NCBI RefSeq assembly: GCF_030412265.1
Contig: NZ_JAUHLN010000003.1
Span: forward strand, 248,001-312,000
Length of the DNA stretch: 64,000 nucleotides
From: Fictibacillus terranigra
Lineage (GTDB): Bacteria; Bacillota; Bacilli; Bacillales; Fictibacillaceae
Reading direction: 5' to 3'
Below, piece by piece: positions 16,727 to 31,457 of this stretch. Each line of letters opens with the position of its first letter. The stretch's first letter is position 1. Under the pieces are notes generated by a model. That model did not search any database. It had not been told where the DNA came from and was given only the letters and a program-made list of their open reading frames with translations. A program made the position numbers and the translations under genes.

Positions 16727-17405
16727 AGGATCCTACATTTTTCTGCCGTGTCATCCAGGCTGTTTTATGGGCATTGGCGAGCTTCACTTTTTTCAATCCC
16801 AGCCACCAAAGGAACAGCATAAAAGGCAGCATGGCGATAAGAAAATCCTTTTCGAAAACAAGTAATATCCAATTGTAGATGGCATGCAATACAAACGGTA
16901 TAAGAAAGGAAAGGGTTAAGAACATTTTTCTCTTCTTACCAGAAGAAAACTTAGCCTTCCCAAAATAATACCCGCTGATCACACCGAACAGGGCATGGCT
17001 GGAAACGGGCATCAATGCTCTGCCGAACGCTTCAGTCAGTCCATGCACGTACAGGTATAAAATATTCTCCATTGAAGCGAATCCAAGGGATAAAGCCACG
17101 GCATAGACGATCCCGTCATATGGCTCATTGAACTCCGCATGCTGATAGGCACAATAAAAAACTAGAAACCACTTTAAGAATTCTTCGAGAAGAGCAGACA
17201 GAAAAAAGCCCTCTGTAAAAGAAGAAACCATTATTTCTTCTTTAAATCCGAATTGGATAACCATAATGGGAAAAACGAGCAAAGCTCCAAAAATATATAA
17301 TCGAATGACCATAGAAACAGGCTCAGTTTCATATTTATCTTTTAAATAGAAGAAAGCAAGCAGGGCGACAGCAGGAGCAACCCCTGCCGAAATAATTCCA
17401 ATCAT
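16725..17405 (-). CDS. prsW: intramembrane protease PrsW (cleaves anti-sigma factor RsiW)
   Basis: A 226-residue membrane protein with about seven hydrophobic segments. It has the PrsW motifs: EE in ALLEEFLKWF, the segment EPYDGIVYAVALSLGFASMEN with the conserved E and N, and SSHALFGVISGYYFG with His. In B. subtilis it performs site-1 cleavage of RsiW and so releases SigW under cell-envelope stress. Position near sleB-ypeB and ypdA is as in B. subtilis. Single gene with its own terminator; start ATG at 17405. Confidence 0.92.
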   Translation of the reverse strand: MIGIISAGVAPAVALLAFFYLKDKYETEPVSMVIRLYIFGALLVFPIMVIQFGFKEEIMVSSFTEGFFLSALLEEFLKWFLVFYCAYQHAEFNEPYDGIVYAVALSLGFASMENILYLYVHGLTEAFGRALMPVSSHALFGVISGYYFGKAKFSSGKKRKMFLTLSFLIPFVLHAIYNWILLVFEKDFLIAMLPFMLFLWWLGLKKVKLANAHKTAWMTRQKNVGS

Positions 17406-17501
17406 AGAAGCCCTCTTTTCAGCTGTTTTTTACAATCGTATCATGGAACACATAGAATGGAAACCGTTAGCTGATGTTTATGAAGAAATTGTAACATCTG
17501 C

Positions 17502-18467
17502 CTAGAAAATCGTCTGTATGCGGTCTCCCTCTCCTGCAGCCAGAAGTACGGCAAGCCGGATTCTGGCCTTCTTGCTGTCATAATCCTTGCCCAATATCAC
17601 TCCATGTTCAGCAAGATCAAACGTACTTCCGAGATAATCATAGGTCGGATAGACTTGGCCTTCTTCAGAACTGGTCGTAATGACAACCTTAATACCTGCT
17701 GCAACAGCTTCAATAATGGATTCCATCATCAATGGGGCAACCTGTCCCCTTCCAGCACCCTCAAGGACAATCCCCTGAACTCCGCTGTCCATGGCGGCTT
17801 TCACAAATTTTCCGTCCGCACCGATGTAACACTTGATGATGTCAACAGCAGGCACTTCTTGTACTGCCGTATAAAATTCTCTTCCAATAGGCTTTTGATA
17901 AGCTACCACCTTATCATTGTCAATGATCCCCAAGTAACCAAATCCGAACGAATTAAATCCCTGCAGGTTGGATGCATGGACTTTTTTTACATACCTTGCT
18001 GTAAAGATCCGCTCGTTAAAAACAACCACCGTTCCGGAACCTTTTAAATTGGGATCGCAAGCGGTATAGATGGCATGCCTCATATTCGTATACGAGTCAC
18101 TGCCGATCTCGCCGGGCGAACGCTGTGACCCGGTTACAACCACTGTCCTGGGATCAGCAATGGTGAGATCAAGAAAATATGCGGTTTCCTCAATACTGTC
18201 CGTTCCGTGGGTGATGACTACTCCATCATAAGCGGAATCTTCATACAAGTTTTCAATCGCTTCTTTAAGCACGTTTAAATGTTCAAAGGTCATGTGCATA
18301 CTTGGCACTTGGAACAGTGAAAAGATATTCACTTCAATATCGTTCGGGAGTTCAATCATTGCAGCCAGCTCTTCTCCCGTTAAAGCCCCTGATGACAGCA
18401 GTCCTGTCGTTTCATTCGGCTTACTGGCAATCGTTCCTCCGGTTGTGATCAACGCTACTTTTTTCAT
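17502..18467 (-). CDS. ansA: L-asparaginase (type I, AnsA family)
   Basis: Hydrolyses asparagine to aspartate and ammonia. The 321-residue protein has the two catalytic threonine segments: TTGGTIAS near residues 8-15 and HGTDSIEETAYFLDLT near 87. No signal peptide, so cytoplasmic. The ATG at 18467 has GAGGAGG upstream; the longer reading has no ribosome site. It neither overlaps nor closely follows ypdA, and a hairpin at 18548-18574 separates them. In B. subtilis ansA is linked to ansB; here it stands alone. Confidence 0.93.
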   Translation of the reverse strand: MKKVALITTGGTIASKPNETTGLLSSGALTGEELAAMIELPNDIEVNIFSLFQVPSMHMTFEHLNVLKEAIENLYEDSAYDGVVITHGTDSIEETAYFLDLTIADPRTVVVTGSQRSPGEIGSDSYTNMRHAIYTACDPNLKGSGTVVVFNERIFTARYVKKVHASNLQGFNSFGFGYLGIIDNDKVVAYQKPIGREFYTAVQEVPAVDIIKCYIGADGKFVKAAMDSGVQGIVLEGAGRGQVAPLMMESIIEAVAAGIKVVITTSSEEGQVYPTYDYLGSTFDLAEHGVILGKDYDSKKARIRLAVLLAAGEGDRIQTIF

Positions 18468-18540
18468 ATGTAAACACCTCCTCAGTATCATAACACATGC
18501 TATTCGCTACAAAAACATCCATTCTTAACGAAGCACAAAC

Positions 18541-18574
18541 AAAAAAACAGCCCGGTTCTAAAGAAGCGAGGCTG
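18541..18574 (-). terminator. terminator-like hairpin over the ypdA stop codon
   Basis: Minus strand GGCAGCC...GGGCTG stem core CAGCC/GGCTG at 18548-18574, followed by TTTTTTTG. The stem is short with a large loop, so termination is likely but not certain. Confidence 0.55.
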
Positions 18575-19538
18575 CCAGCGTTTCGGCGATCAAACCGCCA
18601 TGGAATCTTCCGTTCTCAATAAAAATTTCATTGGCATTGTTTCCCGCCGCAATCACACCGCAGATAAACACATTTTTCACATTGGTTTCCATCGATTCAG
18701 GATTGTAGGCCGGCCGACCGGATTCATGGTCAATAAGAATCCCAATTTTCTTTAGGAAATCATGGTCGGGATGATATCCGGTCATCGCAAACACAAAATC
18801 CGCTTTTACGGTTTCTCTGTTTCCTTTTTTATCAAAAATAACTGTATTTTTTCCGATCTCAAGAACATTTGATTGAAAATGCATCGAGATTTTCCCGCTG
18901 TTCACATGGGAAACAAACTCAGGCAGCACCCATGGTTTCACACTTTTTGAATAATCTTCTCCCCGATAAAGAACCGTCACTCTAGCACCCGCTTTTTGAA
19001 GCTCGAGAGCTGTATCGACTGCTGAATTTTTTCCTCCGATGACCGTTACATCTTTATTATAGTAAGGATGGCCTTCTTTAAAATAATGAAACACATGGTT
19101 CTGATCCTCCCCTGGGATGTTCATATAGGCAGGATTATCATAATATCCGGTTGCAATAACAACAGCCTTCGCTTCATACTCATATATATCGTCCTTCGCC
19201 GTTTTAGTTCGGATATAATAGGTTGTATTGTTCTTTTTTTGAACTTCTGTTACTTTCTCAAAGGTACGGATATTCAGTTGTTTTCGTTTGGCCACCTCGC
19301 GATAGTAGGTCAGGGCATGAATTCTTCTCGGTTTCCTTTCCTCATTCACAAAAGGCACATTACCGATCTCGAGCTTTTCACTTGTGCTGAAAAATGTTTG
19401 ATGGGTCGGATAGTTATAGATCGACTCCACAATGTTTCCCTTTTCAATCACCACATAGGATAGCCCTTTCTCTTTCACGGAGATGGCTGCGGATAAACCG
19501 CATGGACCCCCGCCGATAATACACACATCGTACTTCAT
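18558..19538 (-). CDS. ypdA: YpdA-type bacillithiol disulfide reductase (Bdr)
   Basis: FAD-dependent pyridine nucleotide-disulfide oxidoreductase that regenerates bacillithiol from its disulfide. The 326-residue protein has the FAD-binding GGGPCGLSAA at residues 9-18, the NADPH-binding GGKNSAVDTA near 167, and the late FAD motif NVFICGVIAAGNNANEIF. It lacks the CxxC of thioredoxin reductase, as usual for YpdA, whose catalytic Cys is in GPCG. Start ATG after AGGAGAG. Position between gudB and the prsW region is as in B. subtilis. Confidence 0.93.
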   Translation of the reverse strand: MKYDVCIIGGGPCGLSAAISVKEKGLSYVVIEKGNIVESIYNYPTHQTFFSTSEKLEIGNVPFVNEERKPRRIHALTYYREVAKRKQLNIRTFEKVTEVQKKNNTTYYIRTKTAKDDIYEYEAKAVVIATGYYDNPAYMNIPGEDQNHVFHYFKEGHPYYNKDVTVIGGKNSAVDTALELQKAGARVTVLYRGEDYSKSVKPWVLPEFVSHVNSGKISMHFQSNVLEIGKNTVIFDKKGNRETVKADFVFAMTGYHPDHDFLKKIGILIDHESGRPAYNPESMETNVKNVFICGVIAAGNNANEIFIENGRFHGGLIAETLAASLL

Positions 19539-19601
19539 TTCTCCACTCTCCTGGTTTCACTAATCTATCGAATTAATCTTTTTTAAGCTCACCCAAAAAC
19601 A

Positions 19602-19637
19602 ATAAAAAATTCCCTATCCATTAATGATAGGGAATTT
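19602..19637. terminator. bidirectional-looking terminator after gudB
   Basis: Perfect stem AAATTCCCTATC/GATAGGGAATTT at 19607-19637, with T-rich flanks on both strands, 20 bases after the gudB stop. Confidence 0.88.
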
Positions 19638-19656
19638 TTTCGCCTTTTGCAAAGTA

Positions 19657-20937
19657 TTAAATCCAGCCCCTGAATCGAGAAGCTTCAGCCATTTTTCGCA
19701 CGCCCACCATATAAGCAGCGAGACGCATGTTTACCTTTCGGTTCGTTGAAGTTGTGTAAACGTTATTAAAAGACTTCACCATAACGCTTTCAAGTTTCTC
19801 TTCCACTTCTTCTTCTGTCCAATAATACCCCTGGTTGTTCTGTACCCACTCAAAATAAGATACCGTTACTCCGCCAGCACTTGCCAAAACATCTGGAACG
19901 AGAAGAATGCCACGCTCGGTTAGAATTTTTGTTCCTTCAAGTGTTGTTGGGCCGTTGGCGGCTTCAACTACGATTGAAGCTTTAATATTATGAGCATTTT
20001 CTGCAGTGATCTGGTTTTCTATCGCTGCCGGAACAAGAATGTCGCAATCGAGTTCTAAAAGCTCTTTGTTGGAGATGGTATCTTTGAATAATTTAGTTAC
20101 GGTACCAAAGCTGTCTCGTCTTTCAAGCAGATAGTCAATGTCAAGGCCATCAGGATCATGCAATGCACCATAAGCATCCGAGATTCCGATAACCTTTGCA
20201 CCTGAATCATGCATAAATTTCGCTAAGAAGCTTCCTGCGTTACCGAATCCTTGGATAACGACTCTTGCACCCTCAAGTTGGAACCCGCGTTTTGCAGCCG
20301 CTTCACGAATGCAAATGGTTACACCCTTTGCTGTAGCAGTTTCTCTGCCGTGAGAACCGCCGAGAACCAATGGCTTGCCTGTGATGAAACCCGGAGAATC
20401 AAACTCTCTGATTCGGCTGTATTCATCCATCATCCATGCCATGATTTGTGAATTGGTAAATACGTCTGGCGCTGGAATATCCTTTGTAGGTCCAACGAGT
20501 TGGCTGATCGCTCGGACATAGCCGCGGCTCAGGCGCTCCAGTTCACGGAACGACATGTTGCGGGGATCACAAATGATTCCGCCTTTTCCGCCACCGTAGG
20601 GAAGATCTACAATTCCCGCCTTCAAGCTCATCCAAATCGAAAGTGCTTTCACTTCTGTCTCTGTTACGCTTGGGTGGAACCGTACTCCCCCTTTAGTCGG
20701 TCCGACAGAGTCGTTATGCTGTGAACGGTATCCCGTGAAAATTTTAGTAGAGCCGTCATCCATCTTCACTGGAATGCGGACTGTCAGCATCCGGATCGGT
20801 TCTTTAAGAAGTTCATATACTTCTTCTGGGTACCCTAATTTATCAAGTGCTTCGCCAATCACCGACTGTGTTGCGGTAAGCACGTTGTTATTTTCATGGT
20901 TATCTGATTTGTGATCTGCTGCGTTTTGGGCAGTCAT
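19657..20937 (-). CDS. gudB: NAD-dependent glutamate dehydrogenase GudB/RocG
   Basis: Catabolic enzyme converting glutamate to 2-oxoglutarate and ammonia. The 426-residue protein has the catalytic Lys segment [27 protein letters not shown], and the Rossmann motif [15 protein letters not shown]. No 9-base duplication like that of the cryptic B. subtilis 168 gudB is apparent. Two starts are possible: ATG 20937 after GGAGG at 7 bases (used) and ATG 20952 after AGAGGTG. Upstream, a cre-like sequence at 21046-21059 suggests CcpA control, as known for rocG. gudB versus rocG cannot be separated from the sequence alone. Confidence 0.93.
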
Positions 20938-21045
20938 TTGGTTACCTCCCATAATTGTCACCTCTAAAGTTTAGTCCATCTTCAGAGACAGTATACACCT
21001 TTGTTAGTCCTATGAGAAGGGAATTTTAAAGATTATCGCGAAAAA

Positions 21046-21059
21046 GGTAAGCGCTTTCG
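21046..21059. promoter_or_regulatory. cre-like CcpA site upstream of gudB
   Basis: The sequence GGTAAGCGCTTTCG matches 12 of 14 positions of the cre consensus TGWAARCGYTWNCW. It lies 109 bases before the gudB start, where it could overlap or precede the promoter. Confidence 0.45.
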
Positions 21060-21090
21060 TTACTATTTTACTATCCTATCGCCCGCATAA

Positions 21091-21119
21091 TGAAACCCTC
21101 CCAAGATACGGCGGGAGGG
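21091..21119 (-). terminator. terminator-like hairpin after ddl
   Basis: GC-rich stem CCCTCCC/GGGAGGG at 21096-21119, just after the ddl stop at 21127. The following T run on the minus strand is short (TTTCATT). Confidence 0.55.
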
Positions 21120-21126
21120 CATCCAT

Positions 21127-22044
21127 TTATTTTTGAAGGGAGAGCTGGATCAGCTTTTCGATCATATCAGGGTAAGAAAGACCTACTTCTTTTGCTGCGT
21201 CAGGGAACAAGCTGGTAGGTGTCATTCCAGGCAGTGTATTCACTTCAAGAATGACCGGTGCACTTCCGTCGTTCGGAACAATGAAATCTACCCGGGAATA
21301 CACTTCGCATCCCAGTACTTCATGCGCCAAGACCGCCTGTTTTTGAAGCAACGCAGTCGTACGATCGTCAAGGCGCGCAGGTACATAATGCACACTCCCG
21401 CCTTCCGCATATTTAGACTCATAATCGTAATACGCATTTTTCGGTACGATTTCAACCACCGGGAGAGCACTTACTTTACCTTTTTCCCCCATTACCGCCA
21501 CTGTCACTTCTTTGCCAGAAATAAATTCTTCCACCATCACTGTATGATCATGCAAGAGCGCGGATGTGATGCCGCTCAGCATTTCATTTTTGTTTTGGGC
21601 GATGGTCAATCCGATCGTAGATCCCTCATGATTAGGTTTGACGACTAGCGGATATCCAAAAGGAACATCCAATTGATCTTCACTGTAGAGTTTTTTCTCC
21701 AAAACCAACTCATTTGCTGTACGGATTCCGGCAATTTTAAAGAACTGCTTCGAACGGGCTTTATCCATCGCCAGTGCCGAAGCAAGCACTCCAGAACCGA
21801 CATAAGGTATTTTAAGCATATCAAGCAAACTTTGCAGCTTTCCGTCCTCACCATACTTTCCATGCAATCCGATGAATACGATATCCGCATTCAGACCAAT
21901 AATTTCTTCCAAACGGTCAGGATGAAAGTCAACTCCGATTACTTCATGCCCTTTCGATTCCAAAGCGTTCATAATCTGTTTTCCACTTGATAAGGATACC
22001 TCTCGCTCTGCAGATACCCCTCCGTATAAGACTGCAATTTTCAT
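21127..22044 (-). CDS. ddl: D-alanine--D-alanine ligase Ddl
   Basis: ATP-dependent ligation of two D-alanines for the peptidoglycan precursor. The 305-residue length is that of the short DdlB type rather than the about 354-residue B. subtilis Ddl. Motifs: the N-terminal GGVSAEREVSLSSG, ATP-grasp segments HEGSTIG and ILEVNTLPGMTPTSLFP. The ATG at 22044 has GGGAGTG about 9-11 bases before it. A GTG 12 bases upstream (22056) is possible. It is monocistronic, with a hairpin after it. In B. subtilis ddl is next to murF; this location differs. Confidence 0.93.
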   Translation of the reverse strand: MKIAVLYGGVSAEREVSLSSGKQIMNALESKGHEVIGVDFHPDRLEEIIGLNADIVFIGLHGKYGEDGKLQSLLDMLKIPYVGSGVLASALAMDKARSKQFFKIAGIRTANELVLEKKLYSEDQLDVPFGYPLVVKPNHEGSTIGLTIAQNKNEMLSGITSALLHDHTVMVEEFISGKEVTVAVMGEKGKVSALPVVEIVPKNAYYDYESKYAEGGSVHYVPARLDDRTTALLQKQAVLAHEVLGCEVYSRVDFIVPNDGSAPVILEVNTLPGMTPTSLFPDAAKEVGLSYPDMIEKLIQLSLQK

Positions 22045-22183
22045 GTGTGTAATCACTCCCACCCCAATAAATATATGTAGTTCATTATATTCCCTGCCAC
22101 GTTTTGTGAGCTTTTCTATAAGGAAATCCCATCTATCATACCATGTTTGGAGGATGATGTAATGGCATATGTGTTTTTTTAAA

Positions 22184-22213
22184 ACAAAAAAACTCCCGGA
22201 TTTCCGGGAGTTT
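22184..22213 (-). terminator. intrinsic terminator overlapping the ypbH stop codon
   Basis: Perfect stem AAACTCCCGGA/TCCGGGAGTTT at 22190-22213 with a 2-base loop, followed on the minus strand by TTTTTGTTTT. The ypbH stop at 22212-22214 forms its 5' edge. Confidence 0.9.
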
Positions 22214-22802
22214 ACTTAAAATAGGAATTGATCTGTGATATGGCATTGCTCTTCATCAGCGCTTTTCCATATTCGATCACCCTGTAGCTTGTTATGGTTG
22301 AAGAGCTTCCGAATTCGGCCAATAATGCAATAAGTGTATCCAGTTCTATATCAGGAAGATCCTGTTCTTCAAATTTTAGATAAAAACAGCTTTCGAATGA
22401 ATAGAGTGCTCCGCCGTCGATGTTAAGCTGGCCAAGGCGTTTTGCCAATGAGATCACATCTTCAAATGACGAAAATTCATAGAAGATTTCGTCACTTTCA
22501 TCCAAGGTAACCTGCATTTCAATATAGTCTTCATCATAATCGTCTTCGAGTTCATACTCGTTATGACCTTTTGTCACAATGACCACCATTCCTTGCGCCG
22601 GTAAAGCAAAAACTTCAACAGCAATCGGTCCGTCTGCTTTGAATCCTACTTCATCGTCTGCTTCGGTCATCATATCTCTGAATAGTTGATGAACTTTCGG
22701 AATATCCTGCCAAATTTCATCTTTGGAGATTCCGCGTTCCTTCAAATCATCAAACGTTAGGAAGATCTTGATTTTGTTATAAGTTAATCGCTCTACCCGC
22801 AT
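22212..22802 (-). CDS. mecB: MecA-family adaptor protein YpbH (MecB)
   Basis: Paralogue of MecA, the adaptor that brings substrates to the ClpCP protease. The 196-residue protein keeps the family N-terminus MRVERLTYNKIKIFLTFDDL, an acidic linker (about residues 95-125) and the C-terminal ClpC-binding domain ending SNAISQINSYF. The overall sequence is closer to YpbH than to MecA, and it sits in the ypb region. In B. subtilis YpbH has a minor role in competence and sporulation. Monocistronic by its terminator; the promoter was not identified. Confidence 0.9.
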   Translation of the reverse strand: MRVERLTYNKIKIFLTFDDLKERGISKDEIWQDIPKVHQLFRDMMTEADDEVGFKADGPIAVEVFALPAQGMVVIVTKGHNEYELEDDYDEDYIEMQVTLDESDEIFYEFSSFEDVISLAKRLGQLNIDGGALYSFESCFYLKFEEQDLPDIELDTLIALLAEFGSSSTITSYRVIEYGKALMKSNAISQINSYFK

Positions 22803-22891
22803 TTCTGGTCCCCCTTACGATCGATTCCGCATCTCTTTAATACACTATATGAGTGAGCAGAAAGTTGGTGCTAACTTCTCTTTGCCACTGT

Positions 22892-23830
22892 TCAATGATT
22901 AAGAAGCGGTCGTTTTTCATGTTTTCGTTTTTTATGAATCCATTGTTCCCAATCTGTTTTTGTGTTCCCTATTATCATGTCTTTAAATTTGGTTTTTATA
23001 TCATTGGATAAATATTCAATCCCCAAGCCCCCCAAGCCGATCTGAAGGCAGGGATATTCTTTTTCCACCACTTCAAGCCATTTCAAGGTGTCTGAAAGAT
23101 GTTCTTCCATTGTACAGGAAACCACTAACAGCTTAGGGTCGATTTCGTCAATGACCACACTGAGATCTTCTGGAGGAATCCCTTCACCAAGATAGATGAC
23201 TTCAAAGCCCTTTTGCCTTAAGTAAAGCGTGAAGATGAGCAAACCTAATTCATGTGTCTCTTTCAATCCGCATACCGCCAGAACCTTTGGCCGATATCCG
23301 TCTACAGGCAGATGATAAATGACATTGCCGATCTTCGCTTTCAAAAAAGATGTTGCGTAATGCTCATGGGCGACTGTGATTTTTTGATTTTCCCACATGT
23401 GCCCAATTTTTACGAGTAAAGAACCTAATATATCAATCGTAACTTTTTCTATTGTAAACAGGCTGAATGCACGGTCCAATACTTCCTTGGCTTTGTTTTC
23501 CTGAAAAGAAAGCAGAGCAGCCAGCAGCTCGTCCGCCAATTGAACTGCCAGATCCTTCTGGCTGCTGTTTTCCATGACGAACTCGTCGATATTATTCCCG
23601 TGATGATCAAGCAGACCTACAGCCTGACTTATGGTGAAACCATGTTTAATTTTGTTCATGAGCCATTTGATGATATAGATGTGTTCATCTGTATAAAGCC
23701 GGTGTCCTGCTTCATTTCGCTTGGGCTGGATGATGGAGTATCTTCGTTCCCAGGCTCTTAAAGTTCCTGCTTGGATGCCAAGCATCTTTGACACAGCTTT
23801 AATATTATACTTCCCTTCCTGTGAAGCCAT
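22892..23830 (-). CDS. MerR-family regulator with B12-binding domain (CarH/LitR-like)
   Basis: The 312-residue protein has an N-terminal MerR winged helix (VSKMLGIQAGTLRAWERRY...HRLYTDEH), a helical bundle, and a C-terminal cobalamin-binding fold. In the bundle, Trp146 and Glu156-His157 match the W-x9-EH motif of light-sensing CarH proteins. In the Rossmann part, Glu191-x-His193-xx-Gly196 matches the ExHxxG loop whose His is the lower cobalt ligand. Glu follows the Trp. Known: CarH/LitR proteins repress genes in the dark when loaded with adenosylcobalamin. Inference: this is a B12-dependent, possibly light-dependent repressor; targets unknown. ATG at 23830 after GGGGGA. Confidence 0.85.
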   Translation of the reverse strand: MASQEGKYNIKAVSKMLGIQAGTLRAWERRYSIIQPKRNEAGHRLYTDEHIYIIKWLMNKIKHGFTISQAVGLLDHHGNNIDEFVMENSSQKDLAVQLADELLAALLSFQENKAKEVLDRAFSLFTIEKVTIDILGSLLVKIGHMWENQKITVAHEHYATSFLKAKIGNVIYHLPVDGYRPKVLAVCGLKETHELGLLIFTLYLRQKGFEVIYLGEGIPPEDLSVVIDEIDPKLLVVSCTMEEHLSDTLKWLEVVEKEYPCLQIGLGGLGIEYLSNDIKTKFKDMIIGNTKTDWEQWIHKKRKHEKRPLLNH

Positions 23831-23863
23831 CTCTATATCCCCCAATAGCTGATTATACCTTTA

Positions 23864-23902
23864 AGTATAGCGGACTGCTTTCCTTGTGTAAAATTTGTAC
23901 AA
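23864..23902 (-). promoter_or_regulatory. SigA-type promoter of the B12-MerR gene with an overlapping dyad
   Basis: Minus strand TTTACA (23887-23892), 17-base spacer, TATACT (23864-23869). An imperfect palindrome TTGTGTAAAATTTGTACAA at 23884-23902 covers the -35 and contains two TACA units. It is a candidate operator for autoregulation, since CarH operators are TACA-rich. The 11-base spacing of CarH operators is not seen, so this is only suggestive. Confidence 0.5.
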
Positions 23903-24006
23903 CGGCTCACAATCATACGCGTACATGCATAGTACTAAAACTAAGGGAGTATTGGTTAAATCCCCGTTAATAACTTTTTGTAAAACACATTTTAACTGAA
24001 AATTGA

Positions 24007-24037
24007 TAAAAAGGACAGCCCCTGCATTTCAGGGCTG
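24007..24037 (-). terminator. intrinsic terminator of the CBS-domain gene
   Basis: Stem CAGCCC/GGGCTG at 24016-24037, followed on the minus strand by TCCTTTTTATC, 7 bases after the stop codon. Confidence 0.78.
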
Positions 24038-24043
24038 GCCGGA

Positions 24044-24676
24044 TCAGTCTTCATGTATGCTTAATATTCTGAACCCAGACTGGCTGAGCTTTTCCACAAA
24101 CTTTTCAAGGTTTGGCGTTTTTTCCACTTTCATGACCATCCTTCTTACGAGCTGATCGGTTTCATCAAAAGTGGTCAGCGAGATAATATTTTCGTGGAAT
24201 TGTTTAGTAATTTCAGACAGCCGGGCTATTCTGCCTTCTGTTTCAAGGGAAGCGAAGGAGATTCTGACCCCAGGCTTCTTCATGCCGAACGCACTTTGAA
24301 ACTGCTCCAGAACATCATACCGGGTCACAACGCCAAGCAAATGATTGTGCTTGTCAGTGACAGCAACGATCGGCATGTCTTTCACAATGAGGAGCGTTCT
24401 TTCAAACATTTCATCCTCACAGATGGTCTGGTTTTTACAGCAAGCAATATCGCCGGCTTTGGTTTTTTCTAGAAACTGCTCCTTCGACTTGCCGCTTGCA
24501 AAGAAAGCTTCATAGATGGAATGCCGGGTAAGAATTCCTTTAAACCGTTTGTCCGAGACAACCGGAACACCATCGATATCATGTTTTTCCAGAAGGTCAA
24601 GCACTTGTTTGACGGAATCTTTTTCCATCACAAAATGTGTTTTTCGCAGCGGGATCATATTGCTTTTTACAAACAT
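24044..24676 (-). CDS. CBS-pair protein with C-terminal ACT-like region
   Basis: The 210-residue soluble protein has two CBS motifs, about residues 5-65 (DIDGVPVVSDKRFKGILTRHSIYEA) and 75-130 (MPIVAVTDKHNHLLGVVTRYDVLE). A C-terminal part, about 135-210, resembles an ACT-type ligand domain. CBS pairs bind adenosine nucleotides. AcuB of B. subtilis has the same domain order and length, but the sequence identity looks low and the neighbours differ, so I give no symbol. It has its own terminator and stands alone upstream of the B12-MerR gene. Confidence 0.8.
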   Translation of the reverse strand: MFVKSNMIPLRKTHFVMEKDSVKQVLDLLEKHDIDGVPVVSDKRFKGILTRHSIYEAFFASGKSKEQFLEKTKAGDIACCKNQTICEDEMFERTLLIVKDMPIVAVTDKHNHLLGVVTRYDVLEQFQSAFGMKKPGVRISFASLETEGRIARLSEITKQFHENIISLTTFDETDQLVRRMVMKVEKTPNLEKFVEKLSQSGFRILSIHED

Positions 24677-24736
24677 ATCCTCACTTCCTCCCCGTCTTCA
24701 CACGATTTAAATTTTGAGAATATTTAAAATCTTTTA

Positions 24737-24765
24737 TTGAAAATACTGTAAAATTGCCTTATCAT
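24737..24765 (+). promoter_or_regulatory. SigA-type promoter of the 72-residue gene
   Basis: TTGAAA (24737-24742), 17-base spacer, TATCAT (24760-24765), about 45 bases before the start. Confidence 0.55.
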
Positions 24766-24809
24766 GAGATTAACCATTTAAAATATTTAAAAGAATGGAG
24801 AGGAACATC

Positions 24810-25028
24810 ATGACTTTATTAAAAATCAAGACAAAATCTCTCGTGTTGAATAAAGATTTACAATATAATGAAAAACTTGGCCTACCTGTAGAAGTGTATT
24901 GCCCGCTTTCCCACCAAACGATCGCTTTCGGTCGCATTGAAACAATGGATGATTGTTTTGTAGTGATTAATTCAGAAAAGCATTCCATTGCAGACCATTT
25001 CTTTTTCGGATGCCCCTGCGCATGCTAA
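24810..25028 (+). CDS. small protein of unknown function with a CPCAC end
   Basis: A 72-residue plus-strand gene with a good Shine-Dalgarno (GGAGAGGAA) and a promoter candidate. I do not recognise the family. The protein is soluble, rich in Lys, Leu and Val, and ends in HSIADHFFFGCPCAC, a Cys-x-Cys-rich tail after a hydrophobic patch. This could bind metal or be a site of lipidation or disulfide; none is shown. It converges with ypbF, the two stop codons being 4 bases apart, with no terminator visible. The start is ATG 24810; the longer reading has no ribosome site. Confidence 0.65.
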   Translation: MTLLKIKTKSLVLNKDLQYNEKLGLPVEVYCPLSHQTIAFGRIETMDDCFVVINSEKHSIADHFFFGCPCAC

Positions 25029-25032
25029 CACT

Positions 25033-25485
25033 TCATTTATGATATAGATTAATGTTGTACTCTGCCTTGACATACTCCAATACCTGATGCCTATTCTTCC
25101 ACATTTCCGGCCTTGGCCATAAATCGTCTCCGCGTTCAATAATCTCTTTCCTGATGCTTTCATATTCTTCATCTGCTTTTGCACATTTCTTTTTAAGCCG
25201 TTTCCACTGAACCCCAGCCAATAGAAAATAGATCCCGATAAACCAGATCATCTTGTCACCGGCCAGTGAAAGCATTGCCGCCCTGACACCTTCCATATGG
25301 TTTAGCTTAAATCCGTACAAGTAAATCAAACCAAGACAACCCATTAATGCACTGTAAAATGCCCACCACTTCATCTGTCTGTCATACAAGTCTTTTTGTT
25401 CTTTTTTTTCAATCAGCGTGTTAAGGACCACTTTGCAGATTTCTGAGATAAAAGGCTCGACCTTCCAGTAGTTGATTGCGTTCAT
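25033..25485 (-). CDS. ypbF: YpbF-type membrane protein (DUF2663)
   Basis: The 150-residue protein has two hydrophobic helices near residues 42-60 and 80-100, flanked by charged helices; the C-terminus ends NINLYHK. This matches the DUF2663 family and B. subtilis YpbF, which follows ypbE in the same order. The ATG at 25485 has AGGAGG 8 bases before it. Function unknown. No terminator separates it from the convergent small gene. Confidence 0.78.
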   Translation of the reverse strand: MNAINYWKVEPFISEICKVVLNTLIEKKEQKDLYDRQMKWWAFYSALMGCLGLIYLYGFKLNHMEGVRAAMLSLAGDKMIWFIGIYFLLAGVQWKRLKKKCAKADEEYESIRKEIIERGDDLWPRPEMWKNRHQVLEYVKAEYNINLYHK

Positions 25486-25612
25486 ATAAGCCCCCTCCTG
25501 CTTCAACGTATGCGTAATGGGAATAAATCATTCCCATTCACATACTGTTTTTGAACCAGTTGCCCCGAGGCTTTTCAGATGACACTCAGCACCATCGACG
25601 AACAGAACAAAT

Positions 25613-25656
25613 TGATAAAAAAAGGATGATGACGTAAGTTTAGTCACCATCCTTTA
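25613..25656 (-). terminator. intrinsic terminator after the YpbE-like gene
   Basis: Stem AAAGGATG.TGAC/GTCA.CATCCTTT at 25621-25656, with one mismatch, followed on the minus strand by TTTTTATC. Confidence 0.85.
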
Positions 25657-25661
25657 ACACC

Positions 25662-25955
25662 TCATGATTCAATTTTCACTTTCTGTACATCATCATTGCC
25701 TTTTAACGGATCCGTTACTTTCGGAAACCAATAGTTATAAGTAAGGATAAATACCACGAGAAGCAAGAAGATCACTAAAAGGGACTTGGCCAGGGGCAGC
25801 CGGTCCTTTTTTTCCGTTGCCGATGGAGAACTTTCAGATTCGGGTTCTGCCGCATGTTCTTTTCTAATCCGTTCGGATTTTCTTTTATGAAATTCCTTCC
25901 TCGAAGGCAGCGGACGATCGCTGATTAATTCAGATTGTTCACTCATGTTCTTCAT
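25662..25955 (-). CDS. YpbE-like single-pass membrane protein lacking a LysM domain
   Basis: The 97-residue protein has a basic, Ser/Glu-rich cytoplasmic part (about residues 1-53), one membrane helix (LAKSLLVIFLLLVVFILTY) and a short outer tail ending KVKIES. It occupies the place of B. subtilis ypbE, but that protein is about 240 residues and carries a C-terminal LysM domain, which is absent here. Start ATG 25955 after GGAGG. It overlaps the end of ypbD by 17 bases, so translation is coupled. Function unknown. Confidence 0.7.
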   Translation of the reverse strand: MKNMSEQSELISDRPLPSRKEFHKRKSERIRKEHAAEPESESSPSATEKKDRLPLAKSLLVIFLLLVVFILTYNYWFPKVTDPLKGNDDVQKVKIES

Positions 25956-26577
25956 GAGTACCACCTCCGTTGTCCTCTAGTGGGTAAGATTCGATATGGG
26001 CTGAAAGCCATCCCTTTGAAATCAGCAGTCCCAGCAAAAAATCGATAAAAAAATGAGCAGTCATTGGAACAAGGAGATTTCCGGTATATTCGTATAAATA
26101 TCCAAGAAGAAAGCTAAGTAGAACCGCCGCAGTGAAAAGTACTGGTTTTTTTATATACCGTACATGAAGAACAGCAAACAGTAAACTGGTCAAGCTTAGT
26201 CCCAGCAGGGGCTGTACTGCTCCCCGAAAGAGCCACTCTTCCGAGAAAGAAATAACTGCTGTAAGAACAGCAATATGCCAGACCGGCATTGATCGGAAAA
26301 TCCGAACATTGATTCCTCCATCGTCCAGGGATCCTTTCGGCAGCCATTTATGCAAAAGAAGATTGATCAGGACGACTCCAATAGCCGTTCCCGCCCCAAA
26401 GACAATGATGTTAAAGCTTTCCCACCTGAGCCGGGTCAGGTCAAAATGTGTAAACCACATGACCGCTATGCCAGCCGTAAAAAACAGGAATTGGGAAAAA
26501 TAAATATTAATGCGTAATTCTCTGTCGCTCATCTGCCGGATCAGCTGTGCTTGATCCCAATTCTTCATGTTGATCAT
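25939..26577 (-). CDS. ypbD: CPBP-family intramembrane metalloprotease YpbD
   Basis: The 212-residue polytopic protein has the CPBP/CAAX motifs: EEWLFRG (EExxxR), FAVLH (FxxxH) and HFFID (HxxxD). Such proteins act as membrane proteases or bacteriocin-immunity-like factors. The start at 26577 has AGGA 5 bases upstream and overlaps the recQ 3' end by 71 bases; other in-frame ATGs have no ribosome site. It belongs to the recQ-ypbD-ypbE gene string. Substrate unknown. Confidence 0.8.
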   Translation of the reverse strand: MINMKNWDQAQLIRQMSDRELRINIYFSQFLFFTAGIAVMWFTHFDLTRLRWESFNIIVFGAGTAIGVVLINLLLHKWLPKGSLDDGGINVRIFRSMPVWHIAVLTAVISFSEEWLFRGAVQPLLGLSLTSLLFAVLHVRYIKKPVLFTAAVLLSFLLGYLYEYTGNLLVPMTAHFFIDFLLGLLISKGWLSAHIESYPLEDNGGGTHEEHE

Positions 26578-28069
26578 CACTTTCCTGATTAAAGATTAGC
26601 TTCAGCTCTTTTTGCCAATTTATTGGAGCTTCAGTCTGCAGCTGTTGTTGGCTATCTTCTTGAAAAAAAAGCTCTATATCCGCCCTGCAAAAACTGCAGC
26701 ATTGCTCCGGTCGCTCCTCCAGCTCTTCATGAAAGATATGCGCAATCCTTTTCCGCTTGCAAAAATCACCCTTTATCCATTCTACCATTTCATCTATTTT
26801 TTTGCGTTTTTGAGCTTTTCTGCTTCTTATTTTTTGAAGGATACGTTTTTTCGCATCTTCTGGAAGCACGTCCCCTTCGTTTGCAAAATAACCTTCTTTT
26901 TCGAACTGATAAACGAGAAATCGCCTTGCACTTTCGTTCATCTCAAATCGCTCGAGCATAGCGGCAAAAGATTCACGGCCGGCTGCCGGAAGTGACGCAC
27001 AGTGGAGCACTTGCCCTTCTTCAGGGAACTCATGGTCAATAAACATTCCAGGAATCTCTTCATCTCCGCTGCAGTATAACATAACAGCAAGACTTTTTTT
27101 CCCGTCTCTCCCGGCACGGCCGATTTCCTGGACATAGGACTCCATCGCCGAAGGCATATGGAAATGGATGACAAACCGAATGTTCGGCTTATTGATGCCC
27201 ATTCCAAATGCGTTCGTACAGCAGATGATATCTAGCTCATCATTAAGAAACTGCTTCTGGATCAGCAGCCGCTCTTCATTTTCCATACCTCCATGATAGG
27301 CAGCCACACGATGCGTCCCTCTTTGCCTAAGATGCTCGGCCAGATTTTCAGCCCAGGACCTTGTAGAGGCATAAAGAATGCCAGGACCACATAAAGTGGA
27401 GGCTAGCCCAATCGCGCGGTTCAGTTTATCCAAATGCTCGGTATATTGCTCGACAGTTAGTGCGATGTTCGGCCTGTCCACTTGATAGATATGCATCGAA
27501 CAGCCTGTCATTTCAAGCTTTTCCCTAATATCGTCTCGGACTTCCGGTGTTGCAGTTGCAGTCAGGGCGAGGCATGGAGGATTCCCGAGAGCAGAGCGGC
27601 AAGAAGCCAGTTTTAAATAGCTGGTCCTGAACTCATGGCCCCATTGTGAGATACAATGCGCCTCATCAACGACAAAAAGCGAGACGCTGATTTTTTTCAA
27701 TTCGTTGATCACGTATTCATTCTCAAGAATTTCAGGGGAAACATATATAAATCGATAAGAGGAGAGCCTGTGAAGTACTCGTTTTTTCTCTTCGAAATCC
27801 ATGAAACTGTTCAAAGCCACTGTCCTTTTTTCCCCTGAACGCTTCAGCTGCTCCACCTGGTCTTCCATTAAAGACAGCAGTGGAGATACAACAATGATGG
27901 AGCCTGAAAAAATATAGCCTGGAAGCTGATAGCAGATAGATTTCCCCGTACCGGTAGGCATCATCGCCAGTACATCCTTTCTCATCAGGAGATCTTCTAT
28001 CACTTCCCTCTGGCCCGTACGGAAATCTCTGTATCCAAATTTTTCACTTAATAGATCTGCCAGTTTCAT
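26507..28069 (-). CDS. recS: RecQ-family ATP-dependent DNA helicase (RecS)
   Basis: 3'-to-5' DNA helicase of genome maintenance. The 520-residue protein has the RecQ motif 0 (FGYRDFRTGQREVI), Walker A MMPTGTGKS, Walker B VVDEAHCISQWGHEFR, motif VI IQEIGRAGRDGK, and a zinc-binding Cys cluster near the C-terminus (CCSFCRADIE). It is the short type without HRDC, like B. subtilis RecS (about 496). The ATG at 28069 follows AGGTG by 6 bases and overlaps the ypbB end by 26 bases, so the two are coupled. Confidence 0.93.
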   Translation of the reverse strand: MKLADLLSEKFGYRDFRTGQREVIEDLLMRKDVLAMMPTGTGKSICYQLPGYIFSGSIIVVSPLLSLMEDQVEQLKRSGEKRTVALNSFMDFEEKKRVLHRLSSYRFIYVSPEILENEYVINELKKISVSLFVVDEAHCISQWGHEFRTSYLKLASCRSALGNPPCLALTATATPEVRDDIREKLEMTGCSMHIYQVDRPNIALTVEQYTEHLDKLNRAIGLASTLCGPGILYASTRSWAENLAEHLRQRGTHRVAAYHGGMENEERLLIQKQFLNDELDIICCTNAFGMGINKPNIRFVIHFHMPSAMESYVQEIGRAGRDGKKSLAVMLYCSGDEEIPGMFIDHEFPEEGQVLHCASLPAAGRESFAAMLERFEMNESARRFLVYQFEKEGYFANEGDVLPEDAKKRILQKIRSRKAQKRKKIDEMVEWIKGDFCKRKRIAHIFHEELEERPEQCCSFCRADIELFFQEDSQQQLQTEAPINWQKELKLIFNQESDDQHEELGSSTADPADERQRITH

Positions 28070-29117
28070 TCCGATCACCTGCCCTTCCAAGCACGAGCCG
28101 TATTTTAAAGTAAGAGATATCATCTCCGAGGCTTTCTTTAATACGTTTCAGTTTTTTGGTCTGAAGCTGTTGAAAGGCTGTTACAATTCGGGCATGTTCC
28201 TGCTCAGAAACATAAGGCCTGATCGAAAAATCCGGACGATGGATTGAAATCTCTACCAGATGGTCTTCAATCGTGCTTCTCTTCATCCTTCTGATGCTGA
28301 TGATCTGTTCCATGCTCTTCCCCGATTTCAGCAGTCTCCATGTCTTTTGGGCGGATACAGTGAGGGGATCGTTTACTTCCAGACAATTTACGAGCCTGTT
28401 TAATATCGGATAAGTGACCGCCTCACGACCTTCGGCATATTTAAGAAGATAGTGAAGAACAAAACGGAAATTAAACTCCGCATCTTCTTCCTGCAGCCCA
28501 AGGACTGCAGCCGCTTGCTGATTTGTCAGGCCCGTCCTGCCATAACGGCTGAGCTTGAGTACAAATACCTCTGCATAGGGCTCCGGCAGTTTGCTCAAAA
28601 GCGCAAAGAATTCTTCGTATAACCTGCCGGCAACAGCCTGCCTCTCCTGTCGTTTAGGAAAAATTCGTTTCACCCTAAAATGGGTCACCGGGTCTCTTGT
28701 TGCTGGAAGAAAATCATATACGTTCCGGGTACTGTAAGACAATGCTTGTATGTATTCAGCGAGGAGTCTGGAAAACGGCATTTCTGCATCCCGGTACCGA
28801 AGTCCGTTGAACGCAAAAATGTATGGCCGCTCCTTTAAAAATTTCGTAAGTTGTTCTTCGCCTTCCTCGGAAATGATGTACCGGTCTTTCAGTTTTTTAA
28901 CGAAATGGGCCTCGACCAGATGGTTCACCGTCTGTTCGAATTCTTCACGCCCGAGCCCTGGGAAGACTGCAAATAAAAAGGAAAGCTCAAAAAGGTGCCC
29001 GTCAGAAAGCGTTTGTGACGTTTTTTTCCCGTTGATCAGATGCAAGATTCCTGACAGGCTCCGCTCACCATTGAATTTTTTAAAACAATAGAGCAGCAGC
29101 CCTTCTCGTGTATTCAT
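28044..29117 (-). CDS. ypbB: YpbB-type helix-turn-helix protein, partner gene of recS
   Basis: The 357-residue protein is mainly helical. It has a C-terminal helix-turn-helix-like region (KSMEQIISIRRMKRSTIEDHLVEI) of the HTH_40 type that in other bacteria is fused to RecQ. YpbB of B. subtilis (about 352 residues) lies directly upstream of recS, as here. The coupling and HTH_40 relation suggest that YpbB works with RecS on DNA. Upstream is the divergent fer gene. Start ATG at 29117; Shine-Dalgarno is weak. Confidence 0.85.
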   Translation of the reverse strand: MNTREGLLLYCFKKFNGERSLSGILHLINGKKTSQTLSDGHLFELSFLFAVFPGLGREEFEQTVNHLVEAHFVKKLKDRYIISEEGEEQLTKFLKERPYIFAFNGLRYRDAEMPFSRLLAEYIQALSYSTRNVYDFLPATRDPVTHFRVKRIFPKRQERQAVAGRLYEEFFALLSKLPEPYAEVFVLKLSRYGRTGLTNQQAAAVLGLQEEDAEFNFRFVLHYLLKYAEGREAVTYPILNRLVNCLEVNDPLTVSAQKTWRLLKSGKSMEQIISIRRMKRSTIEDHLVEISIHRPDFSIRPYVSEQEHARIVTAFQQLQTKKLKRIKESLGDDISYFKIRLVLGRAGDRNETGRSIK

Positions 29118-29314
29118 TATCTTTCACCACACTTACTAAACTTGAGTCTTGATGCGAAGACTGATAAAGAAGCAGAACTTCGTTTCATGGAGAAACACCC
29201 GGGGAAACATGTAAATAGAGGGAGTAAAGAGATAAACCGTTATTTTTTCTATTGAAATATTGGTAGCTAATAAATTACAATATGAATAGCACACATATAT
29301 TGAAGTATAACATT

Positions 29315-29343
29315 TTGAATGTATACGTGTTTTACTGTATAGT
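29315..29343 (+). promoter_or_regulatory. SigA-type promoter of fer
   Basis: TTGAAT (29315-29320), 17-base spacer, TATAGT (29338-29343), 28 bases before the fer start. Confidence 0.6.
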
Positions 29344-29358
29344 TCTTACCATGATTAG

Positions 29359-29619
<261 letters not shown>

Positions 29620-29633
29620 AAAAATGAAACAAG

Positions 29634-29664
29634 ACCCTTCATGCTCACGCTGGAGGGTTTTTTG
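29634..29664 (+). terminator. intrinsic terminator of fer
   Basis: Stem ACCCTTCA/TGGAGGGT with a wobble pair, then GTTTTTTG. Confidence 0.82.
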
Positions 29665-29688
29665 TATTCCATTTCATTTAAAAACAAA

Positions 29689-29703
29689 TGATAACCATTG
29701 TCA
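29689..29703. promoter_or_regulatory. Fur-box-like palindrome between fer and serA
   Basis: TGATAACCATTGTCA differs from the Bacillus 7-1-7 Fur box (TGATAATNATTATCA) at two positions. It lies 30 bases past the fer terminator and 108 bases before the serA -35, with no iron gene adjacent. Confidence 0.45.
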
Positions 29704-29796
29704 ATTACATTTTTTCGAAAGAGGCAGCATCTTTTCATCTCTTCGTCTGAAAGCCTTTCATTTCTAGTTACCTCATATGATCTTCTCAATTTTCGT

Positions 29797-29825
29797 TTGT
29801 ACTCTATATAGGCGTGTGGTAAATT
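29797..29825 (+). promoter_or_regulatory. SigA-type promoter of serA
   Basis: TTGTAC (29797-29802), 17-base spacer, TAAATT (29820-29825), 60 bases before the serA ATG. No T-box or serine-type leader structure is seen between them. Confidence 0.5.
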
Positions 29826-29885
29826 ATCAATATTATAAAAATATTCTGCCTAGTTAAGAAAAATTACAAACCGGGAGTGGATGAA

Positions 29886-31457
29886 ATGTTTCGAGTGCTG
29901 GCAGCAGATTCAATTGCAAAAGAAGGTATGGCGGCTCTGGAGAGTGAGTCAGAGGTTTCCGTCATCTATGGCAAGGCGGAGGACATACAAGATCCTGAAA
30001 GTATAGACGCGCTAATCGTACGGAGTGCCACTAAAGTGACAAAAGAACTTCTTACTCGTTTTAAAAACATCCGGATCGTAGCGCGTGCTGGTGTCGGAGT
30101 GGATAACATAGATCTTGATGCCGCTACAGAGAACGGTGTACTTGTTATAAATGCCCCGGACGGAAATACAATCTCTACTGCTGAACATACATTTGCGATG
30201 ATTATGGCCACCCTGCGAAAAATTCCTCAGGCCAACCAGTCGATTAAAGATGGAAAGTGGAGCCGCTCCAGCTTCACAGGCGCGGAGCTCTCAGGAAAAA
30301 TACTCGGCATCGTAGGGCTTGGAAGAATTGGGACGGAACTGGCTAAGCGGGCTCGTGCGTTTGGCTCTAAAGTACTGGTATTTGATCCTTTTTTAACGAC
30401 TGAGAGGGCCAAAACACTGCAGGTGGCTCCAGTCACTCTTGATGAACTCCTTGAGAGCAGTGATATTATTACTGTCCATACCCCCCTTACGAAAGAAACT
30501 AAGAATCTCATCAATGCCGACAATCTATCAAAGACAAAGAAGGGGGTTTATTTGATCAATTGTGCCAGAGGTGGCATCCTCGATGAGGAGGCACTGTACA
30601 CCTACTTATCAAACGGCCATATCGCCGGCTGTGCGCTTGACGTGTTTGTGCAGGAACCCGCGGTGGAAAACCGGCTTGTTCACTTGCCGAACGTGATTGC
30701 AACACCTCATATTGCAGCATCAACTGCAGAAGCACAGATGAATGTAGCTGCCCAGGTTGCCCAAGAGATCCTGGCTTTTTCCAAAGGAAAACCGGTTAAA
30801 AACGCGATCAACCTGCCAGCTCTCTCCAATGACGACTTTCAAAAGATTTATCCGTTTTATGAGCTTGCTAAAGTTTCAGGCCAGTTTTTATCCCAATCTT
30901 TTTCTTCTCCAATAAAAGAAATCAAGATTACCTTTTCAGGTTCAATCACAGAAATGGACACTGGCTTAGTTTCTAGAGGACTTCTTTCCGGCTTCCTACA
31001 GCCAAGAGTCGACCGAATTGTCAATGATATCAATGCCACTCTTATCGCGAAAGAACAAGGCTTTTCGTTTGGCGAGAAGTATAGTACAGAAACACAAGGC
31101 TATGAAAATCTCATCGAAGCCCGTGTCATTGGAGAAACAGAAAGCTTCAGCCTTCAATCTACCTTTATTTATGGCTATGGCCCTAGAGTCGTCAACATCA
31201 ATGGTTATTCTACGGACTTTGACCCCGAAGGATTTCTAGTGTACATCGAGCATGTCGATAGGCCCGGGGTCATCGGCAGGGTCGGGAAGCTGCTTGGTGA
31301 CCTGGAGGTTAACATTGCGGCGATGCAGGTCGGCAGAAAGATGGCCGGCGGTGAAGCGATCATGATGCTTACCTTTGACAAAGAACTGGATCAGGACATC
31401 TTGCTGAAGATTAAAGCACTTTCAGATGTTGTATCGGCTACGACCATTAACCTGTAA
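29886..31457 (+). CDS. serA: D-3-phosphoglycerate dehydrogenase SerA
   Basis: First step of serine synthesis: oxidises 3-phosphoglycerate to 3-phosphohydroxypyruvate with NAD. The 523-residue protein has the NAD motif GLGRIGTELAK (near 145), the INCARGGILDEEAL active-site segment, and PHIAASTAEAQ with the catalytic His. The allosteric ASB domain spans about 315-440 and the ACT domain about 450-523 (VDRPGVIGRVGKLLG). The ATG at 29886 has GGAG 8 bases before it; the GTG at 29877 lies inside the Shine-Dalgarno region. A shared terminator follows. Confidence 0.96.
   Translation: MFRVLAADSIAKEGMAALESESEVSVIYGKAEDIQDPESIDALIVRSATKVTKELLTRFKNIRIVARAGVGVDNIDLDAATENGVLVINAPDGNTISTAEHTFAMIMATLRKIPQANQSIKDGKWSRSSFTGAELSGKILGIVGLGRIGTELAKRARAFGSKVLVFDPFLTTERAKTLQVAPVTLDELLESSDIITVHTPLTKETKNLINADNLSKTKKGVYLINCARGGILDEEALYTYLSNGHIAGCALDVFVQEPAVENRLVHLPNVIATPHIAASTAEAQMNVAAQVAQEILAFSKGKPVKNAINLPALSNDDFQKIYPFYELAKVSGQFLSQSFSSPIKEIKITFSGSITEMDTGLVSRGLLSGFLQPRVDRIVNDINATLIAKEQGFSFGEKYSTETQGYENLIEARVIGETESFSLQSTFIYGYGPRVVNINGYSTDFDPEGFLVYIEHVDRPGVIGRVGKLLGDLEVNIAAMQVGRKMAGGEAIMMLTFDKELDQDILLKIKALSDVVSATTINL

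Follow-up and report, generated by a model that had tools for sequence, protein, structure and literature searches.

Class I CarH/LitR regulators are described in PMC9758184 chiefly for light-inducible carotenoid production. LitR/CarHBm of Bacillus (Priestia) megaterium is light-responsive according to PMC9304148 and PMC8156234, and in the light its tetramer goes over to a dimer, not to a monomer. The published CarH operator unit is nnnnTnnACAn in an 11-bp step, and the CarHBm operators are given as four such repeats, or three and one pseudo-repeat, lying over the -35 or -10 element (PMC9304148). The B12 motif of these proteins was defined as D/ExHx2G-x41-SxV/T-x22-27-GG (PMC8156234/PMC9304148), and PMC8156234 and PMC11796333 link the adenosyl-side residues Trp and Glu-His with the working of CarH and with the photoreceptor signature. 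A His at site 132 of Thermus thermophilus CarH is ascribed in PMC9304148 to "many" CarH proteins, not to all. As stated in PMC11796333, site 132 varies (Arg, Gln, Tyr) in other light-responsive cobalamin proteins, and CtMerR of Chloracidobacterium thermophilum (8jbs, by title) is a MerR-B12 protein that responds to light without His132 and has Arg there. Poddar et al. (PMC10442372) reported that the H132A variant of T. thermophilus CarH mostly stays tetrameric after light, and they mention an earlier study in which its disassembly was seen. CarA of Myxococcus xanthus, which has the MerR-B12 architecture, lacks the Trp of Wx9EH (PMC9304148).

The protein described here belongs to this known class, and what is new is an orthologue in Fictibacillus, where carotenoid and photolyase genes were not found. 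A conserved and strongly selected CarH in genomes lacking matches to a carotenoid synthase or a photolyase makes other uses of coenzyme-B12 light sensing testable. Nothing on the Fictibacillus locus was found in the open-access literature; subscription journals lay mostly outside the search, and no priority is claimed.

The merR-B12 gene and its product

The window, that is, the whole stretch of 64,000 nucleotides of Fictibacillus terranigra DNA that was analysed, contains the following gene, domains and pocket residues.

22892..23830, minus strand: merR-B12 gene (CarH/LitR class I regulator), 312 aa; ORF and domain searches, alignment, and fold
23606..23809, minus strand: MerR winged-helix DNA-binding domain, residues 8-75, containing GTLRAWERRY; Pfam and alignment
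23327..23539, minus strand: four-helix-bundle part of the B12 domain, residues 98-168; Pfam
23000..23287, minus strand: Rossmann B12-binding domain, residues 182-277; Pfam
23393..23395, minus strand: Trp146, equivalent to Trp131 of T. thermophilus CarH; alignment
23390-23392, minus strand: Glu147, at the position of T. thermophilus CarH His132; alignment
23360..23365, minus strand: Glu156-His157 of Wx9EH; alignment
23243..23260, minus strand: E191-x-H193-x2-G196; alignment

The ORF runs from an ATG at 23830 to a stop codon ending at 22892, and initiation at a TTG at 23845 instead would lengthen the product to 317 aa. Pfam searches with the 312-aa product returned MerR_1 (5.1e-15), B12-binding_2 (1.7e-12), and B12-binding (1.2e-12), and the RxWERRY recognition helix was found as RAWERRY at residues 25-31. 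By sequence, the nearest solved structures were chains of T. thermophilus CarH/LitR (3whp, 8.2e-25; 5c8d, 1.0e-24). An AlphaFold2 model (mean pLDDT 81.8, pTM 0.62) likewise gave CarH 5c8d and 5c8e as the top Foldseek matches (8.7e-16 for 5c8d), the structural alignments to full-length T. thermophilus chains showing 24-29% identity; identity to CtMerR, which has Arg rather than Glu at site 132, was 18-19%. The rmsd against full-length chains was 11-15 Å in the first twelve rows, whereas matches to the B12 domain mostly lay at about 2.5-4.6 Å; the large full-length values probably reflect a different placement of the domains in the model. The window genome encodes a single merR-B12 protein of the full type, four more weak matches having only the MerR part or only the B12 part.

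W146, E156-H157, and E191/H193/G196 share alignment columns with W131, E141-H142, and E175/H177/G180 of T. thermophilus CarH. Thus Wx9EH, on the adenosyl side of the pocket, is present, and so is the B12 motif, in the form E191-x-H193-x2-G196-x41-SCT-x26-GG, with His193 as the expected lower axial cobalt ligand. The first-pass annotation had recognised a MerR domain and both cobalamin-pocket motifs at these residues; the alignment to CarH and the Pfam searches agree with it, and the refuting case it named, His193 and Trp146 lying outside the pocket, did not materialise, as both align with CarH pocket columns. None of the six scored pocket residues is changed in the window protein or in any of the seven Fictibacillus proteins. 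Judged from its sequence, the protein is therefore a genuine class I CarH/LitR-type protein, sharing fold, Wx9EH, ExHx2G, and MerR domain with T. thermophilus CarH but differing in Glu147 for His132 and in Lys190 at the Gly of the SignatureFinder GxxH motif. It also shares the MerR-B12 architecture of CarA, from which it differs in having the Trp. We infer that it binds AdoCbl, forms an oligomer in the dark, and dissociates in the light.

Three of the four motifs of the SignatureFinder cobalamin-photoreceptor signature were present (GHMW, EH, and GEGIP), and GxxH was absent on account of Lys190; the Priestia orthologue (GPNETH) likewise lacks GxxH by reading. The score against the NCBIfam CarH equivalog NF052513 was 137.1 bits, below the cut-off of 400. 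This model looks narrow, since the Priestia orthologue also scored only 132.7 bits.

Genomic place

22212..22802, minus strand: ypbH (ClpC adaptor, MecA paralogue), 89 bp downstream of the merR-B12 gene; neighbour comparison

In all 51 loci found by a similarity search of genome contigs, ypbH comes straight after the merR-B12 gene, and it lies within 1.2 kb of that gene in 107 of 108 distinct orthologues. The order recQ-ypbD-ypbF-(ypbG)-merR-B12-ypbH-gudB-ypdA-ansA, in which we assigned the neighbour names by resemblance, was seen in most of the 51 loci. An odd position or a recent acquisition of the gene, which had been considered, is ruled out by this adjacency; what had been taken for an unusual place is instead a common home of the gene among Bacillaceae loci. 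To our knowledge, B. subtilis lacks this merR-B12 gene. A homologue at E≤1e-15 was present in 259 of 397 Bacillales genomes (79 of 135 genera), a count that includes paralogues, with up to five candidates scored per genome and the place checked for some only. The nearest named relative of the window protein is that of Fictibacillus sp. FJAT-27399 (91%).

Promoter and predicted operator

23864..23892, minus strand: sigma-A-type promoter TTTACA-N17-TATACT; promoter scan and orthologue comparison
23896..23901, minus strand: predicted operator repeat 1, TGTACA (TnnACA type); cross-locus comparison
23885..23890, minus strand: predicted operator repeat 2, TACACA, 11 bp after repeat 1 and overlapping the -35; cross-locus comparison

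The promoter scored 10/12 and was the strongest of four promoter-like sites in 22700-24100. Shuffled versions of this region contained 3.4 such sites on average, and the call therefore draws its weight from conservation in orthologues, the count itself being near the shuffle level.

A dyad upstream of the gene had been proposed earlier as a sign of autoregulation. The palindrome TTGTACAA is indeed present there but does not recur across genera; the element that recurs is a direct repeat, TRTACA-N5-TACACA, with an 11-bp step. This arrangement, often TATACAaagTTTACACA, was found again in Metabacillus, Rossellomorea, Bacillus, and Priestia loci. Two 11-bp direct repeats are thus the better reading of the dyad, and through them autoregulation of the gene is plausible. 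Two perfect TnnACA repeats over the -35 make up the predicted window operator, compared with three or four in characterised CarH operators. Among the seven Fictibacillus promoters, three have two perfect repeats (L001, L006, and L058), while the other four (L007, L008, L009, and L062) keep the -35 with the first repeat lost or degenerate.

Probable orthology with LitR/CarHBm

The window protein is 51-52% identical to the ypbH-locus protein of P. megaterium-like Priestia genomes. Five of these (G195, G220, G267, G308, and G366) gave one match each, a lower bound given that up to five candidates were scored per genome, and in each case the match stood beside ypbH. The promoter of the Priestia ypbH-locus gene carries four perfect tandem 11-bp TnnACA repeats in all five genomes. 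Four of the five have a strong crt-synthase match, and in the three whose crt operon was examined (G195, G220, and G366) it carries three perfect repeats and then a further unit that departs from the pattern at two positions. Because this layout matches the operator description in PMC9304148, and considering copy number and genus, we take the Priestia ypbH-locus protein to be LitR/CarHBm. Elsewhere, three perfect repeats were seen at the crt operon in G427 and in G013, and two in G119, which additionally encodes a second CarH-type paralogue.

A quick tree of 46 intact and 17 of 18 pocket-altered proteins placed the ypbH-locus proteins, including those of Priestia, in one clade (support 100, a starred branch). 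The window protein thus shares with LitR/CarHBm both the clade and the place beside ypbH, together with the motif residues and 11-bp TnnACA repeats over the -35, and very probably is its orthologue. The two differ in the number of perfect repeats at their own promoters, four for LitR/CarHBm versus two in the window, and in that the window genome lacks a crt-synthase or photolyase match.

The second CarH-type paralogue (about 35% identity, WE..AQEH) was seen beside SelO in L187 and near SelO in L188. Another copy, at L191:5972-6937, stands beside crt genes with triple 11-bp repeats.

Carotenoid and photolyase genes

PF00494 (phytoene/squalene synthase) and PF00875 (photolyase) gave no match in any of the seven Fictibacillus genomes, including the window genome (G000), while 7 and 8 of 14 control genomes, respectively, were positive. 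The earlier observation that carotenoid and photolyase genes were missing nearby therefore holds genome-wide for these two families. With no PF00494 match in the seven genomes, control of a carotenoid operon of the LitR/CarHBm kind was not found, and a carotenoid target appears to be absent from Fictibacillus.

We consider it likely that the window gene encodes an AdoCbl-dependent, light-released, autoregulating repressor of the LitR/CarHBm type with one or more other, non-carotenoid targets. The computed basis consists of the domains, the motif columns, the fold, the orthology, the promoter repeats, the absent crt and photolyase matches, and purifying selection; beyond it we infer that the protein binds AdoCbl, represses, is released by light, and has another target. 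In the dark, AdoCbl would be held between the helix bundle and the Rossmann domain, with Trp146 and Glu156/His157 on the adenosyl side and His193 beneath the cobalt. The AdoCbl-bound protein would oligomerise, and its MerR domains would occupy the tandem 11-bp TnnACA repeats over its own -35. On exposure to light below about 530 nm the Co-C bond would be cleaved, and the oligomer would fall apart and leave the promoter free. Since no carotenoid operon was found in Fictibacillus, the repressor would there serve its own promoter and another, non-carotenoid target.

Residue 147 and the supply of AdoCbl

A His next to the Trp, the light-state upper ligand, is a common rather than a defining feature, and the window protein has Glu147 instead. 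Among 90 intact-pocket orthologues, this residue was Glu in 87, Gly in two, and Arg in one, and its equivalent in the second paralogue type was Glu in 18 of 22. The first-pass annotation had read Glu147 as a hint of odd light chemistry; the hint is weak, because Glu is the norm of the clade. The light state may still differ in some way from that of T. thermophilus CarH, given the behaviour of H132A, and the dimer end-state of CarHBm would fit a light state formed without a bis-His clamp. The clade-wide Glu accordingly bears on whether the light state needs a His upper ligand at all.

No B12 gene was evident among the window ORFs 15000-32000, which were inspected by eye for such context. A cobalamin adenosyltransferase gene is present on another contig of the window genome, and AdoCbl can therefore probably be made from corrinoid. 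As a clue by co-occurrence the adenosyltransferase was uninformative, being present in all 80 genomes searched, the window genome included.

The protein could instead be a sensor of AdoCbl supply, which represses when coenzyme B12 is plentiful and for which light has no natural role. The lack of crt-synthase and photolyase matches throughout the seven Fictibacillus genomes would suit a role in metabolism better than one in photoprotection, Glu stands at the site whose His takes part in the bis-His ligation of the T. thermophilus CarH light state, and the ubiquitous adenosyltransferase is in keeping with such a role. Nevertheless, we regard it as unlikely: Trp146 and Glu156-His157, which belong to the photoreceptor signature in PMC8156234 and PMC11796333, are kept, and the five P. 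megaterium-like Priestia proteins, whose genes have the CarHBm operator layout, mostly carry Glu too (four with WEKGQITSAHEH around the Trp, one with WGKG and hence Gly).

Search for other targets

The 15-mer TRTACANNNTTTACA has three exact matches in the window genome, namely the gene's own promoter, a bioY/oxidoreductase intergenic region, and a site inside a coding ORF. The second (G000:C8:996825-996839, L216) resembles the BirA-box consensus and lies between bioY and a molybdopterin oxidoreductase-like gene, the genes being named by eye. With up to one mismatch allowed, the 15-mer occurred 79 times versus 70 for the reversed control, which is near background.

The search for triple TnnACA repeats covered 11 genomes, and all 15 triple matches of the seven Fictibacillus genomes were inspected. 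It misses degenerate repeats, which are known in CarH operators, and PhoP-box-like repeats mimic its pattern; triple matches before a phoP-like gene in G003 and G013 look like PhoP boxes, a real confounder. The window genome gave two triple matches, one upstream of glmU and the other in a T-rich stretch ahead of a gene that by eye looks O-acyltransferase-like, neither of them convincing. Hence the genome-wide operator check that had been suggested earlier yielded no second convincing operator in the window genome, whether by the 15-bp core or by triple repeats. The repeat upstream of glmU (G000:C4:18970-18997, L256) is of the type TTAACA-N5-TTGACA-N5-TTCACA without the TRTACA form; it occurs in similar form in all seven Fictibacillus genomes and is probably unrelated to CarH.

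In the F. fluitans-like genome G021, four perfect TnnACA units with an 11-bp step (L251:1501-1539, plus strand) are found some 90 bp upstream of an AcrB-family gene (PF00873, 5.6e-95). In a set of loci of 3.5 million bases with both strands counted, biased towards repeat matches, just one other distinct four-unit site turned up, at the Priestia litR promoter, and no exact triple repeat of this kind was among the matches listed for the other six Fictibacillus genomes. The AcrB-family gene is thus a lead to a non-carotenoid CarH target, a candidate in one genome of seven; its units also resemble PhoP boxes. Upstream of five photolyase genes (in G195, G220, G427, and G461) no good triple repeat was found, the best reaching 9/12. 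In Priestia G195, three 11-bp-spaced units (TATACA, TATACA, and TGTACA; L267:1501-1528, minus strand) precede an ArsC-family gene (PF03960, 5.1e-27), which is possibly a further CarH target, to judge from these repeats.

Pocket loss and selection among orthologues

In 18 of the 108 distinct ypbH-locus proteins at least one of the six pocket residues was changed, which is what we call pocket-altered; five of the 18 were changed at one residue only, while a Neobacillus group has lost nearly all six. This set omits the paralogue-type and distant loci, L050, L056, L108, L120, L131, and L149, the short MerR protein L003, and identical proteins; L002, L004, and L005 are absent from the pocket-residue alignment. 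On the quick tree, eight changes between the intact and altered states are needed, three of them forced by starred branches, with several altered rows on long branches. Decay of the pocket has thus been repeated elsewhere in the ypbH-locus orthologues.

The 15-bp operator core with up to one mismatch, which appears in 0.17% of mononucleotide shuffles, was found at the own promoter of 42 of the 90 intact-pocket orthologues and of none of the 18 pocket-altered ones (Fisher 8e-5, uncorrected for kinship); over half of the intact-pocket orthologues thus lack it. Carotenoid synthesis, scored as a PF00494 match above 200 bits, was compared in 37 genomes drawn from the 51 loci (Table 1); weaker PF00494 matches, up to 99.7 bits, are presumably YisP-like. 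Three more pocket-altered genomes (G087, G209, and G230; L128-L130) had no strong crt match either, bringing the coverage to the genomes of 14 of the 18 pocket-altered proteins. A wider set of 57 rows contained five crt-positive rows without the core and eight crt-negative rows with it. Independent-pairs tests controlled for kinship pointed in the same direction in one to three pairs and never in the opposite one, and were not significant.

Table 1 Pocket state, crt synthase, and operator core in 37 genomes.
Intact pocket, crt synthase present: 13 genomes, operator core in 13
Intact pocket, crt synthase absent: 13 genomes, operator core in 5
All intact pockets: 26 genomes, crt synthase in 13, operator core in 18
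Altered pocket: 11 genomes, crt synthase in 0, operator core in 0

Selection was compared as median dN/dS, using only pairs with dS between 0.1 and 1.5. For the B12 domain it was 0.057 in the P. megaterium-like group (6 of 10 pairs usable), 0.075 in Fictibacillus (5 of 21, thus few), 0.085 in crt-positive relatives (4 of 55, also few), 0.108 in Peribacillus (all 36), and 0.245 in the pocket-lost Neobacillus clade (27 of 28). For the DNA-binding domain the medians ranged across groups from 0.024 to 0.081, Fictibacillus having 0.024. By these estimates, purifying selection on both Fictibacillus domains appears strong, and constraint on the B12 domain looks equal to that in carotenoid producers, with few usable pairs behind the comparison.

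It is quite improbable, in view of these values, that the gene is a remnant of a former carotenoid photoregulator, reduced to controlling only itself or nothing at all. Such a relic would account for the missing crt synthase, for the want of a second convincing operator in the window genome, and for the degenerate operator in four of the seven Fictibacillus promoters, and elsewhere decayed pockets do go with genomes lacking a crt-synthase match. Against it, all seven Fictibacillus genomes retain the gene with every signature residue, at a dN/dS well below that of the Neobacillus B12 domain.

The pocket-altered proteins keep their DNA-binding domain: GTLRAWERRY is unchanged in the 15 that were compared, and in the pocket-lost orthologues this domain has 93% pairwise identity and a dN/dS of about 0.04. 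CarA is a model for these Neobacillus proteins, and the family seems able to act without B12 as well, yet a B12-independent, CarA-like role of the window protein, in which the pocket would be ornamental, is most improbable with its six scored residues intact there and in all the Fictibacillus proteins.

The light-released repressor with a non-carotenoid target, which we prefer for Fictibacillus, could be part of a wider history that we offer tentatively and rate as somewhat doubtful. The ypbH-locus CarH may be an ancestral Bacillaceae light/AdoCbl switch, with the carotenoid operon as one lineage's output; the regulon of Fictibacillus, and of Peribacillus, would be neither carotenoid nor photolyase, and Neobacillus and several other lines would have dropped the B12 pocket while keeping the DNA-binding domain. 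On this view, the conversion of a green-light photoreceptor to a B12-free regulator, its DNA target conserved, would have taken place on more than one occasion. The Bacillaceae series of intact pockets with crt, intact pockets without crt, and lost pockets offers a natural experiment on the upkeep and dismantling of a photoreceptor.

Neighbouring genes

No terminator-like hairpin was found in the gap between the merR-B12 gene and ypbH in the window, and only one of 107 orthologous gaps has one, making read-through into ypbH possible. An ACC-N14..16-CATAnnnT element is present before ypbH in 101 of the 107 gaps, compared with 0.2% of shuffles, and lies at 22844-22869 (minus strand) in the window. 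It resembles the sigma-K/sigma-E consensus and looks like a sporulation-type promoter of ypbH's own. Rfam gave no match in window positions 15000-30000.

Two further genes distinguish the surroundings. A D-Ala-D-Ala ligase gene (PF07478, 1.1e-52; window 21127-22062, minus strand) lies between ypbH and gudB in the window, in L006-L010, and in L192, and is absent from the other listed loci. Directly upstream of the merR-B12 gene, a CBS-domain gene (PF00571; window 24044-24676, minus strand) takes the place that ypbG, not seen here, holds in most Bacillaceae loci.
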